64,000 nt of DNA, taken from Tateyamaria sp. ANG-S1. Its GTDB lineage: Bacteria; Pseudomonadota; Alphaproteobacteria; Rhodobacterales; Rhodobacteraceae. Positions 707 to 38,913 of this stretch are shown here, one piece after another. A program made the translations under genes and the position numbers. Location: assembly GCF_000814025.1 (NCBI RefSeq), contig NZ_JWLL01000006.1:434001-498000 (forward strand). The letters are read 5' to 3'. The notes under the pieces are model-generated. The model worked only from the letters and a program-made list of their open reading frames with translations, was not told the origin of the DNA and did no database searches. Within the stretch, counting starts at the first letter, position 1. Each line of letters starts with the position of its first letter.

Positions 707-1939
707 ATGGACATCACCGCGTTGGTTTTGGCCTATGCGCATGCAGAACCGCCAGAGGATGTGTGCGCCGTCATGCGGCTGTCGGTGCTGGATTGGGCCG
801 CGTGCGGTATTGCGGGGCATCAGGACGGTGCTTTTGACAGTTGGGCCGCGACGCTGACGGGGCAAGGCGCCGCGACGCGATTTGATGGGCGTGGTAGTGC
901 ACTGGCCGAAGCGGCGCTCGTCAACGGCACGCTGTCTCATGCGTTGGACTACGACGACACGCACTTTGCCCATATTGGGCACCCCTCTGTCGTTGTCATT
1001 CCGGCGGCCTTGGCGGTTGCCGAGGCGCGGGGCCTGCCCCTTGAGCAGATGGTTGACGCGGCGCTTGTTGGCGCAGAAGCATCGGTGGCCGTTGGGCTTT
1101 GGCTGGGGCGCGATCACTATCAGGTCGGGTTTCATCAAACTGCGACCGCCGGTGCCTTTGGGGCAACGGTGGCCGCCGGTCGGCTGCTTGGTCTATCGGC
1201 AAAGCACATGCGCGCGGCGCTTGGCCTGTGCTCGACCATAGCGTCAGGTTTGAAGTCCCAATTCGGAACCATGGGAAAGCCGCTAAACGCTGGACTTGCG
1301 GCACGGACGGGTGTCGAGGCTGCGCTTTGGGCGCAAGCCGGTCTGACATCGGCAGAGGATGGCTTGGCAGGCCCGCTGGCCTTTGGCGCAACGCATCACG
1401 GCGCGGGGGCGGATGTGCCATTTGCCTGGCGCATGGGATCGGTCAGCCACAAGTTCCACGCCTGCTGCCACGGTCTGCATGCGGTTTTGGAGGCTGTGCG
1501 TGACGTTGACCTGTCTGGTGCGGCGCAGATCACGGTGCACACCCACCCACGCTGGATGACGGTGTGCAACCAGCCCTCCCCAGACACAGGGCTGGGTGCG
1601 AAGTTTTCCTACCGGCATGTATTGGCCATGGCGGCGCATGGCCATGACACGGGCGACATCACCGCGTTCTCGGACGCAAATGCGCAGGATGCGGCGCTTG
1701 TAGCTTGGCGGGACAGAGTGGGGGTCGAGGCTGATGACACCCTGACCGAAATGCAGGCGCGTGTCGTCGTTGATGGCGTGGTCTACACCCATGATCTCGA
1801 TGCCCCTTTGCCGTTTGATATGCGACAAGATCGCATCCACGTAAAAGCCCGCGCGCTGGTCGGCGCACGGGCGGATGAGATTGCGCAAGCCATCGAAGAC
1901 GACGACTTGCCGCGTTTCGCTCAGCTGCTGACGTCGTAG
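707..1939 (+). CDS. MmgE/PrpD family protein
   Basis: A 410-residue member of the MmgE/PrpD family, which includes 2-methylcitrate dehydratase and related hydro-lyases such as cis-aconitate decarboxylase. Family features are the N-terminal LSVLDWAACGIAG helix, the NGTLSHALDYDDTH signature (about residues 80-95), a GFHQTATAGAFGATVAAGRLLGL segment, and the KFHACCHGLHAVLEA segment in the lid domain. The exact substrate cannot be told. No prpB/prpC neighbours are present, so a methylcitrate-cycle role is not supported. ATG 707 is preferred over an in-frame TTG at 692, because the 692 codon lies inside a dispersed repeat that is non-coding elsewhere. The 3' end overlaps the convergent amt gene by 19 bp. 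Confidence 0.82.
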   Translation: MDITALVLAYAHAEPPEDVCAVMRLSVLDWAACGIAGHQDGAFDSWAATLTGQGAATRFDGRGSALAEAALVNGTLSHALDYDDTHFAHIGHPSVVVIPAALAVAEARGLPLEQMVDAALVGAEASVAVGLWLGRDHYQVGFHQTATAGAFGATVAAGRLLGLSAKHMRAALGLCSTIASGLKSQFGTMGKPLNAGLAARTGVEAALWAQAGLTSAEDGLAGPLAFGATHHGAGADVPFAWRMGSVSHKFHACCHGLHAVLEAVRDVDLSGAAQITVHTHPRWMTVCNQPSPDTGLGAKFSYRHVLAMAAHGHDTGDITAFSDANAQDAALVAWRDRVGVEADDTLTEMQARVVVDGVVYTHDLDAPLPFDMRQDRIHVKARALVGARADEIAQAIEDDDLPRFAQLLTS

Positions 1940-18453: not shown

Positions 18454-18693
18454 ATGGCTTCGGACCGACAGAATTTACAAGATGCATTCCTAAACCACGT
18501 GCGCAAGACCAAGGTGCCCGTGACGATTTTCCTGATCAACGGCGTGAAACTGCAGGGGGTTATCACGTGGTTTGACAACTTCTGCGTGCTGCTGCGCCGC
18601 GATGGGCAGAGCCAATTGGTCTACAAGCACGCGATCTCGACCATCATGCCGAGCCAGCCGATCAGCCTGTATGAGGGCGAAGACGCCTCTTGA
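18454..18693 (+). CDS. hfq: RNA chaperone Hfq
   Basis: A 79-residue Sm-like protein that forms hexameric rings and pairs small RNAs with mRNAs. Sm1 ([36 protein letters not shown]) and Sm2 ([13 protein letters not shown]) are complete and the C-terminal tail is short, as in Rhodobacteraceae. It is coupled to hflX (1-nt overlap), a conserved hfq-hflX arrangement. Its presence is relevant to the candidate small RNA at 37.96 kb. Confidence 0.97.
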
Positions 18694-36011: not shown

Positions 36012-37844
36012 TCAGTTTTCGTCCCACCACCAGAATTGCGGCATCCAGTCCGGCCCGTCACCATAAAGCGGGATCACCTCGGGGTGCTTCATCTCGGATA
36101 CATGGGCGATACGGCCCGTCGTGAACTGCCAGAAGGGCACGACATACCTGCCTGCGGTCAGCAGACGGTCAAGGGCGCGGGTCGCCGCAAGGCTGTCCTC
36201 GCGCGTGGTGGCTGTCAGCATGGCGGTGATCATGGCGTCTATGGCCGGGTCCTGCACGCCCATCAGGTTGCCGGAGCCTTCTTCCTCTGCCGCGGTGGAG
36301 CCCCAATAGAACCATTGCTCATTGCCGGGGCTCAGCGACAAGGCACGGCGAATATAGGCCATGTCGAAATCGAATGCGTCCTCGCGCGCCGTAAACTGGG
36401 CGCCGTCCACAAGGTCGATGCGCACGTCGATGCCAAGCTGTTCCAGCGCCTGAATATACAGGTTTGCGATGGCGCGATCTTCGGTCCGTTGCTGATCGAG
36501 CAGGATGGTAAAGGCCATTGCCTGCCCATCCGCATTGCGCAGCTTGCCGTCCTGCGTGGTCCATCCGGCCTCTTCCAGCAGACCGATGGCACGGCGCAGC
36601 CCCCTGCGGTTGCGCAGCGATCCGTCGCTTTCGGGCAGGGTATAGCCTTCCATCACGCCCGGCAGCAGCTTGCCATTGAACGGCGCCAGCAGTTCGGCCA
36701 CGCGCCCCTTGGCGGCCCCCGGTTCCATCGCCAGCGGTGAGTTCGAAAAGTAGGAGGTGATGCGCGGTTGTGCCCCGCCAGTCAGCGTGTCGTTGATGTA
36801 TTCGAAATTGAAGGCGGTGATCAGCGCCTCGCGCACGCGCCAGTCGTCAAAGGGCACGCGGCGGGTGTTCATGACAAAGCCTGTGATGCCAGACGGTTTC
36901 TGGTGCTCGATTTCTGTCTTGATGACATCACCCGATTGCACGCGGGGAAAGTCGTATTCGCTGTTCCATGTCTCGGCATTGAACTCGCGCCAGGCCGAGA
37001 TTTCACCGGCCTTGAACGCTTCCAGCACCACGTCGCCATCGCCGTAGAAGTCGATGGTGATCTCATCAAAGTTGAAGGTGCCACGGCGGAAATTCAGGTC
37101 ATTGCCCCAGTAATCCGGATTGCGCGTCAGGGTGACGTAGCGCGCGCCTTCGTAGTTGCTGACAACATAAGGGCCAGAGCCGATGGGCACGTCGTTGATC
37201 GTGGCGGCGGCAAAATCCTTGCCCTCCCACTGGGCTTTTTGCAGGACCGGACGCATACCGGCCAGCAGGGCCAGTTCGCGGTTTTCGGAATTGAACGTGA
37301 ACTTGATGCTGCGCGGCCCGGTTTGCTCCATGGTCTCGATCTGCGCCCACAGGCTGCGGTAGCGCCCGTGCCCCTGGGTGCCGAGGGTTTCGTAGGACCA
37401 CATCACGTCTTCGATCGTTACCGGGCTGCCGTCGGAGAATGTCGCCTCTTCGCGCAGGGTGAATTCGACCCATGTGCGGTCGGCATCCGTCTCAATCGAT
37501 TCGGCGAGCAGGCCGTAGAGGGCGAAAGGTTCGTTGCGGCTGCGGCCCATCAGGCTTTCATGGGTCAGGAACCGCAGCTGCCAGGGCACGTTGCCCTTCT
37601 GGATGTAGGGGTTCAGCGAATCAAAGCTGCCCGTGCTGGCCAAGGTGATGGCACCACCTTTGGGTGCATCTGGATTCGCGTGCGGAAGAGACACAAAATC
37701 CGGTGGCAGGGCAGGGTCACCGTACATAGCTATGCCATGTTGTGGCTCTGCTTGTGCCATTGCGGCAAGGCCAACAAGGCCCGCAAGAATCACCGAAGCG
37801 CTGCGTTTTTTGCTGAGTCGCGTTTGGAAAAAATGCCTGCTCAT
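36012..37844 (-). CDS. YejA-like oligopeptide ABC transporter substrate-binding protein (orphan)
   Basis: A 610-residue periplasmic SBP_bac_5 family protein. The N-terminus (MSRHFFQTRLSKKRSASVIL ... AMAQA) is a Sec signal peptide. The mature part starts EPQHGIAMYGDPALPPDF and PHANPDAPKGGAITLAS, typical of YejA-type binding proteins for oligopeptides/microcin C. ATG 37844 has AAGGAT about 10 nt upstream and fits the signal peptide better than ATG 37883. No permease or ATPase gene lies nearby, so it is an orphan binding protein. A divergent candidate small RNA begins about 115 bp upstream. Confidence 0.9.
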   Translation of the reverse strand: MSRHFFQTRLSKKRSASVILAGLVGLAAMAQAEPQHGIAMYGDPALPPDFVSLPHANPDAPKGGAITLASTGSFDSLNPYIQKGNVPWQLRFLTHESLMGRSRNEPFALYGLLAESIETDADRTWVEFTLREEATFSDGSPVTIEDVMWSYETLGTQGHGRYRSLWAQIETMEQTGPRSIKFTFNSENRELALLAGMRPVLQKAQWEGKDFAAATINDVPIGSGPYVVSNYEGARYVTLTRNPDYWGNDLNFRRGTFNFDEITIDFYGDGDVVLEAFKAGEISAWREFNAETWNSEYDFPRVQSGDVIKTEIEHQKPSGITGFVMNTRRVPFDDWRVREALITAFNFEYINDTLTGGAQPRITSYFSNSPLAMEPGAAKGRVAELLAPFNGKLLPGVMEGYTLPESDGSLRNRRGLRRAIGLLEEAGWTTQDGKLRNADGQAMAFTILLDQQRTEDRAIANLYIQALEQLGIDVRIDLVDGAQFTAREDAFDFDMAYIRRALSLSPGNEQWFYWGSTAAEEEGSGNLMGVQDPAIDAMITAMLTATTREDSLAATRALDRLLTAGRYVVPFWQFTTGRIAHVSEMKHPEVIPLYGDGPDWMPQFWWWDEN

Positions 37845-37923
37845 TTTGTAAACAATCCTTGATCGCCCTTGTTTTGTTAACAATAGCGGCCAACAGACAT
37901 TTACGCATTATCAAACTTTTAGC

Positions 37924-37953
37924 TTGGACTCTTCGGGCGGGTTTGCGTATAAC
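37924..37953 (+). promoter_or_regulatory. Sigma70-type promoter TTGGAC-N18-TATAAC
   Basis: The -35 box TTGGAC (37924-37929) and -10 box TATAAC (37948-37953) are separated by 18 bp, a near-consensus housekeeping promoter. The predicted start is about 37960. No coding region lies between it and the terminator at 38007. Confidence 0.65.
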
Positions 37954-37959
37954 AAGGGC

Positions 37960-38035
37960 ACTGCTCGATAGGTTTCTTGCCTGTATGAAACCTGCCTCAA
38001 TAACTTAACGCCAGCTTCGTGCTGGCGTTTTTTTT
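37960..38035 (+). ncRNA. Candidate ~76-nt small RNA
   Basis: A predicted transcript runs from the promoter at 37924-37953 to a strong intrinsic terminator. Its 5' half folds as AGGTTTC-N10-GAAACCT (37970-37993). A single-stranded linker (GCCTCAATAACTTAA, about 37994-38008) follows, then the terminator hairpin. A hairpin, an A/U-rich linker and a U-tail are the layout of Hfq-dependent small RNAs. It is divergent from a peptide-binding-protein gene, a class of mRNA often controlled by small RNAs in other bacteria; any target here is speculation. Confidence 0.6.
38007..38035 (+). terminator. Strong intrinsic terminator
   Basis: Stem AACGCCAGC (38007-38015), loop TTCGT, stem GCTGGCGTT (38021-38029), followed by a run of eight Ts to 38035. 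This is the best-formed terminator in the window and no annotated plus-strand gene precedes it within 10 kb on that strand except the candidate small RNA (the previous plus-strand gene ends at 34994). Confidence 0.85.
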
Positions 38036-38127: not shown

Positions 38128-38913
38128 ATGGCTTTTGAAATCTCTCTCAGCGGCAAGACGGCTGTCATCACCGGTTCCAACTCGGGCATCGGGCTGGGCA
38201 TGGCGTGGGAACTCGCGCGGGCTGGGGCCGATGTGGTGCTGAACTCGTTCACGGACAACGACGAAGATCACGCCATCGCCAAGGAGATCGCTGATGAGAC
38301 CGGCACAAATGCGCGGTACATTCGGGCTGATATGTCCAAGGGCGATGAATGCCGCGCGCTGGTCGAAAAAGCGGGGGCCTGCGATATCCTTATCAACAAC
38401 GCGGGCATCCAGCATGTGGCGGGCATCCCTGAATTCCCGGTCGAGAAATGGGACGCCATCATCGCGATCAACCTGAGTTCCGCCTTTCACACCACAGCCG
38501 CGGCATTGCCCATGATGCGGGATGCAGGTTGGGGCCGGGTGATCAACGTGGCCTCCGCCCACGGCCTGACCGCTTCACCGTACAAATCGGCGTATATCGC
38601 GGCCAAACACGGCATCGTTGGCCTGACCAAGACAACAGCACTGGAAACGGCCGAAGAGCCTATCACCGCCAACGCCATCTGCCCGGGCTACGTGCTGACC
38701 CCGCTGGTCGAAAGCCAGATCCCTGACACGATGAAAGAGTATGACATGGGCCGCGAAGAGGTGATCAAGAACGTCATGCTCAAGCGCCAGCCATCCAAGG
38801 AATTCGCGACGACGGAACAGATGGGCGGCACCGCCGTCTTCCTCTGCTCATCCGCCGCGGACCAGATCACCGGCACAACAATCAGCGTAGACGGCGGTTG
38901 GACGGCGCTCTGA
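38128..38913 (+). CDS. bdhA: 3-hydroxybutyrate dehydrogenase (SDR family)
   Basis: A 261-residue short-chain dehydrogenase that interconverts 3-hydroxybutyrate and acetoacetate with NAD. The glycine motif GSNSGIGLG (residues 16-24), NNAG, catalytic Tyr156/Lys160 in SAYIAAKHG, and the C-terminal ITGTTISVDGGW are present. The GIQHVAGIPEFPVEKWDAII and LTPLVESQIPD segments match 3-hydroxybutyrate dehydrogenases. It is followed by a patatin-like lipase gene on the same strand, suggesting joint action in PHB or lipid turnover. Confidence 0.92.
   Translation: MAFEISLSGKTAVITGSNSGIGLGMAWELARAGADVVLNSFTDNDEDHAIAKEIADETGTNARYIRADMSKGDECRALVEKAGACDILINNAGIQHVAGIPEFPVEKWDAIIAINLSSAFHTTAAALPMMRDAGWGRVINVASAHGLTASPYKSAYIAAKHGIVGLTKTTALETAEEPITANAICPGYVLTPLVESQIPDTMKEYDMGREEVIKNVMLKRQPSKEFATTEQMGGTAVFLCSSAADQITGTTISVDGGWTAL

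Follow-up and report, generated by a model that had tools for sequence, protein, structure and literature searches.

StsR and UpsM as the closest described systems

StsR (formerly RSs0827) of R. sphaeroides is a 72-nt RNA under the control of RpoHI/RpoHII that can bind Hfq (PMC8307010); it is induced in stationary phase and upon heat, oxidative stress and iron limitation (PMC8307010, PMC3413700, PMC3688512). Pairing of StsR with UpsM and with the dcw 5' UTR changes the structure of the target and opens access to an RNase E site; in R. sphaeroides, pairing with UpsM lowers dcw mRNA and slows growth (PMC8307010, PMC11354728, PMC8625941). The mraZ/dcw leader is the main known target of StsR, and the rpoE mRNA is a further one in this species (PMC8307010). 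UpsM is a 206-nt RNA derived from the dcw 5' leader; it starts 268 nt before mraZ and gives rise to a stable 3' fragment of 130 nt (PMC5089854). Weber et al. already reported that the long mraZ leader is a feature of the Rhodobacteraceae, and that UpsM shows little conservation in its region R1 (PMC5089854). The sections of the literature examined describe StsR in one species (PMC8307010, PMC11354728, PMC8625941); no report of StsR across the Rhodobacteraceae was found in the literature searched, and NAR gkab491, which lies outside that search, may already discuss its conservation.

Locus anatomy and predicted RNA

Within the window, the 64,000-nt stretch of Tateyamaria sp. ANG-S1 DNA that was analysed, a small RNA of ~76 nt is predicted at 37960-38035 on the plus strand, with predicted ends; it is supported by an alignment of 60 loci and by covariance model R1. 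The first 39 nt (37960-37998, +) form a near-invariant core, ACTGCTCGATAGGTTTCTTGCCTGTATGAAACCTGCCTC, which shows very few changes across the aligned loci and includes parts complementary to the mraZ leader. Hairpin 1 (37970-37993, +) lies within this core and has seven base pairs, AGGTTTC (37970-37976) with GAAACCT (37987-37993), closing a 10-nt loop; an A/U-rich linker connects it to an intrinsic terminator (38007-38035, +) with a 9-bp stem (38007-38015 with 38021-38029) and eight Ts (38028-38035). The hairpin, the linker and the terminator had all been pointed out in a sequence-only reading of this DNA, and each is present.

The promoter (37923-37953, +) consists of a C followed by TTGGAC (37924-37929), an 18-nt spacer and TATAAC (37948-37953). 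It had been described as near-consensus; the two boxes and the spacer are indeed there, but TTGGAC agrees with the sigma-70 hexamer TTGACA at only 3/6 bases, and a sigma-70 scan of the 4 kb around the locus found no promoter, so that the description does not hold for the housekeeping sigma factor. The boxes are kept across the family, CTTGG and TATA each in 54/60 loci; of the 53 loci with a measured spacer, 31 have one of 17 nt and 20 have one of 18 nt. Promoters of both RpoH factors have a conserved TTG at -36 to -34; in the RpoHI logo C is over-represented at -37, and T at -9 is critical for RpoHI (PMC3441632). The promoter of the putative StsR homologue likewise shows a conserved TTG with a C before it, in keeping with the RpoH logos; no T at -9 is apparent. 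It is more like the RpoH type than the sigma-70 type, and RpoH control of the Tateyamaria RNA is plausible. A conserved element, CAAACTTTT (37912-37920, +), adjoins the -35 box upstream and is exact in 48/60 aligned loci; it could serve as an UP element or as the binding site of a regulator.

The segment 37958-38037 folds better than 200/200 shuffles (z -3.97); in its best fold the hairpin 1 sequence is paired differently, and the 76-nt transcript folded alone gives the hairpin as described. A scan recovers the terminator of the RNA, with 3 terminator-like sites against 3.3 expected in 4 kb, which is no excess. As the terminator count shows no excess and the scan yields no sigma-70 promoter, the evidence from the single sequence is modest; the decisive evidence that the RNA unit is real is comparative and comes from its conservation across the genomes of the family. 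A stand-alone intergenic RNA gene with its own promoter and terminator at 37960-38035, as first proposed, is supported by the sequence together with this conservation.

Distribution and conservation in the Rhodobacteraceae

With a 146-bp query, 60/61 genomes of the Rhodobacteraceae were matched strongly (E of 5e-13 or better), the exception being a genome that is 74% complete (G052). The 60 loci were aligned and represent 38 distinct transcripts, from which the covariance model was built. A covariance search for the unit in other Rhodobacteraceae, which the sequence-only reading had named as a check, came out in its favour: at E up to 1e-4 the model matches 383 of the 394 family genomes sampled; among those with a completeness of 90% or more and a contamination of 5% or less, it matches 344/347. 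Among the 11 misses, the small RNA copy of G448 is interrupted by a contig end; in three others (G192, G214, G052) a laxer search gave no RNA copy either. In G286 (L174, ~1471-1530, reverse strand) ~30 nt are inserted within the core, between CTGCTCGA and AAGGTTTC. Two model matches each (E up to 1e-4) occur in G240, G278 and G344, which may be duplicates or assembly redundancy.

Of 385 genomes sampled across the class, five that belong to the family score 104-108 bits and 27 others score only 22.4-31.3 bits. The latter were judged to be noise, and the seven of them examined as loci (L148-L154) lack two core strings; occurrence outside the family was rejected. Because matches outside reach at most 31.3 bits as against 104-108 inside, the RNA looks restricted to the Rhodobacteraceae. 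In Paracoccus denitrificans, a very abundant small RNA of 80 nt, 'intergenic 60', and a further one, 'intergenic 134', are reported to be conserved in Rhodobacteraceae (PMC5107571); they might include an StsR-type RNA or UpsM.

The aligned family loci also bear on the structure of the RNA. Both sides change in 4/6 counted pairs of the terminator stem; two-sided changed cells number 26 in both helices taken together, compared with 7.1 in shuffles, and all 26 fall in the terminator. Six of the seven pairs of hairpin 1 never vary in the aligned loci, so that the alignment gives no covariation evidence for this helix.

Nowhere in the window is there an Rfam match at gathering level, and no Rfam 15 family covers the RNA at that level. 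The sequence-only reading could name no family for the RNA; the evidence given below points to StsR. Membership in a described family would have to build on sub-threshold matches to BjrC1505 (RF02356, 28.9 bits), RyhB (RF00057, 23.7 bits) and mmgR/suhB (RF00519, 20.7 bits), and is contradicted by the curated cut-offs of 50, 55 and 41, respectively, under which all three scores lie. Six BjrC1505 loci that do score above the cut-off contain no 39-nt core in 160 bases each, and a search of their 3 kb for seven flanking proteins gave no match; that the RNA belongs to one of these families has next to no probability.

Neighbouring genes

The gene divergent from the RNA encodes a solute-binding protein (SBP_bac_5; 36012-37844, -). 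Its divergence had been noted at the outset, with the gene named as one for an oligopeptide-binding protein, and proves to be a lasting arrangement, as the same opp neighbour is found in 59/60 loci (the exception is L038). The presence of hfq in the window is likewise borne out (18454-18693, +; Pfam Hfq, E 5.9e-34). GcvB and AbcR1 are trans-acting small RNAs of the Hfq type. With a constant opp neighbour and hfq in the genome, the RNA could act in the manner of GcvB or AbcR and regulate ABC transporters for oligopeptides or amino acids, the divergent gene first among them; peptide and amino-acid ABC mRNAs had been suggested as targets in the sequence-only reading, together with an interaction prediction at the start of the opp gene. 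That prediction went against the suggestion: the duplex energy at the opp 5' regions beats all 60 shuffles in 1/59 loci only, with a median z of -0.1, so no conserved complementarity is seen at the opp neighbour, to which this comparison applies. GcvB/AbcR-like control of the opp gene is rejected by this result, and the gene is regarded as a conserved neighbour and not as a supported target; a regulator of ABC transporters in the wider sense is given a very slight probability.

A dehydrogenase gene starts at 38128 (+), downstream of the RNA, and the RNA might on this account be its leader, by read-through or as a riboswitch, rather than a free RNA. Between the two, however, lies the strong terminator with its covarying stem, and the dehydrogenase follows often but not always, several loci with the RNA giving no dehydrogenase match in the stretch examined; a leader of this gene is about as improbable as membership in one of the Rfam families above.

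Complementarity to the mraZ/dcw leader

The longest perfect match to the RNA outside its own locus in the Tateyamaria genome lies on the opposite strand in the mraZ leader, where 18 nt are identical (G000:C29:79759-79776, outside the window). A transcript from there would therefore be perfectly complementary to the RNA over 37978-37995 (+), a stretch that takes in the 3' arm and most of the loop of hairpin 1. In the same genome a terminator match with mismatches scores equal to this one. The order of the dcw cluster at this mraZ site is taken as generally known and from PMC5089854.

For 74 pairs of small RNA and leader (20 of them from one genus), mraZ loci were taken from relatives; dropped were G041 (no mraZ match), G036 (short leader), G052, G192 and G214 (no small RNA), and G400, G448 and G286 (small RNA cut or interrupted). 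The longest complementary run exceeds that of all 60 dinucleotide shuffles in 67/74 genomes, and the duplex energy is better than that of all 60 shuffles in 60/74, with a median z of -4.5; the 7/74 and 14/74 genomes that remain show no complement longer than all shuffles and no energy beating all 60, respectively. The weakest complementarity among the 74 is that of G425. In 60/74 leaders there is a CGAGCA hexamer, the complement of a portion of the RNA's 5' end; this is an uncontrolled count. In L100 (G052, 74% complete) the mraZ leader keeps TTTTCATACAGGCA and no RNA copy was found; the RNA may lie in a portion of the genome that the assembly lacks.

The part of the core that is matched varies by genus, the CATACAGGC side being used in most and the GAGGCAG side in five divergent genomes; in these (L202, L204, L200, L199 and L198 of G113, G425, G446, G142 and G372) the longest leader complement contains GAGGCAG and not CATACAGGC. 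Compensatory evolution of core and leader was considered and rejected. It is suggestive in G161 only, where the leader pairs at -44.1 with its own core against -41.3 with the consensus core, at a different place; G118 (-32.4 own, -35.8 consensus) and G216 (-40.2 own, -42.1 consensus) speak against it, G425 shows no difference between the two cores, and in G048 the own core lengthens the longest run from 7 to 10 with no improvement in energy (-30.9 vs -31.3).

Identity of the RNA

The PufL protein of one genome in the set (G110) is 100% identical to the sequence taken as R. sphaeroides PufL, which matches PDB reaction-centre L chains of presumably the same species. Judged by PufL, this R. sphaeroides-like genome is presumably R. 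sphaeroides. It has one strong copy of the RNA (L129, 1501-1576, minus strand), predicted at 76 nt as against the 72 reported for StsR, with an identical 39-nt core, the same opp and dehydrogenase neighbours and a TTG-type -35 box. Its mraZ leader contains AGCAGGCTTCATACAGGCA, which corresponds to nt 53-71 of UpsM; complementarity is perfect over a run of 12 nt, and the longer site includes one mismatch. The position of UpsM in this genome was placed from the published distances and a GTG start.

Length, the single locus, the target and the promoter together argue strongly that the G110 locus is StsR, a comparison made through these features and not through a printed StsR sequence. This indirectness leaves some room for a different small RNA that shares with StsR only its target in the mraZ leader, in which case two RNAs would bind UpsM; the R. 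sphaeroides-like genome, however, holds one strong locus, and that locus has the right length, the complementarity to UpsM and the TTG-type -35 box, which makes a second RNA improbable, if less so than the Rfam, ABC-transporter and dehydrogenase explanations. The Tateyamaria RNA is very probably a homologue of the trans-acting StsR.

A leader stem beside the pairing site

The RNase E cut implied by the 130-nt fragment of the 206-nt UpsM falls around nt 76-77, just past the 3' end of the pairing site (nt 53-71). In the predicted fold of the free R. sphaeroides-like leader, TTTCATC at the cut forms a stem with a GATGAGA close to the 5' end, and this stem is lost in the predicted co-fold with the small RNA in both species examined (Tateyamaria and R. 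sphaeroides-like). The freed strand goes partly into a small new hairpin in the R. sphaeroides-like case and is partly paired with the small RNA in Tateyamaria; since it is not simply single-stranded in the co-folds, RNase E access at the cut remains a proposal. The gain on co-folding in Tateyamaria (-20.8) lies beyond all 100 shuffles, the lowest of which gives -13.5; in the R. sphaeroides-like pair it is not exceptional (-11.3 kcal/mol, with a mean of -8.0 and a lowest value of -19.9 in 100 shuffles).

The stem was followed in the 68/81 leaders that have a recognisable site and enough sequence, 20 of the 68 coming from one genus. A run of at least seven pairs is present in the windows round the site in 51/68 leaders, compared with 14/68 after one shuffle each, and in some leaders the best run lies elsewhere in these windows. 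For a permutation test one genome per genus was kept (49 genera), with 19 congeners and the motif-less leaders dropped: the pairing score with the own partner, 750.5, exceeds all 10,000 partner permutations (highest 685.0), and the own partner pairs better than the average other one in 35/49 genera. Windows shifted off the stem give z values of 1.34, 0.11, 2.54 and -0.15, compared with 7.74 for the stem windows (48 genera); as the shifted windows have no effect to that degree, base composition does not account for the signal. The stem that closes region R1 of UpsM thus appears to be kept by covariation, and is a new element here.

Carried over from the work on R. sphaeroides, the following switch is proposed. 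In stress or stationary phase, RpoH-type sigma factors would turn the RNA on, and together with Hfq it would bind the dcw leader by base pairing in the UpsM part. This would break the leader stem, the 3' strand of which (in many species TTTCATC) adjoins the pairing site, and RNase E would then cut there. After the cut, UpsM and dcw mRNA would fall and growth would slow. The alignment of the family makes this switch model testable by compensatory mutation.

Significance and comparison with known systems

An RNA of the StsR kind is predicted to act on cell division, a principle that is already published; what the genomes compared here appear to add is an occurrence nearly throughout the family, a core that hardly changes and the covarying leader stem beside the StsR site. 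The findings suggest that one small RNA may couple stress sigma factors to the cell-division operon throughout the family, many marine bacteria included. The core is conserved far beyond what its known target appears to require; the stretch that is matched differs between genera, and some genomes combine a weakly matching leader with the fixed core. For these reasons a second universal partner of the core, another mRNA or a protein, can be put forward tentatively, with somewhat less than an even chance of being correct; StsR would then act across the family as a hub between stress and division, and not as a one-target RNA.

BjrC1505 resembles the Tateyamaria RNA as an alphaproteobacterial small RNA with a similar A/U-rich stretch and terminator, but it has another conserved block and other neighbours, and its score is under the cut-off. 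GcvB and AbcR1 would share with the Tateyamaria RNA the character of a trans-acting small RNA of the Hfq type, and differ in that the latter shows no sign of pairing with the neighbouring ABC-type mRNA. UpsM is its presumed partner, the target and not this RNA, and is encoded outside the window; upstream of mraZ, the Tateyamaria genome carries the pairing site together with the GATGAGA/TTTCATC stem and a hairpin resembling a terminator. The closest likeness is to StsR of R. sphaeroides: 72 nt compare with ~76 predicted, both RNAs are intergenic with a terminator and their own promoter containing TTG, both are complementary to the mraZ/dcw leader (UpsM), and the same 39-nt core is present in the R. 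sphaeroides-like genome. They differ in the promoter spacer, 18 nt in Tateyamaria against 17, and in the host, Tateyamaria being a roseobacter in which the RNA is known here from sequence alone.
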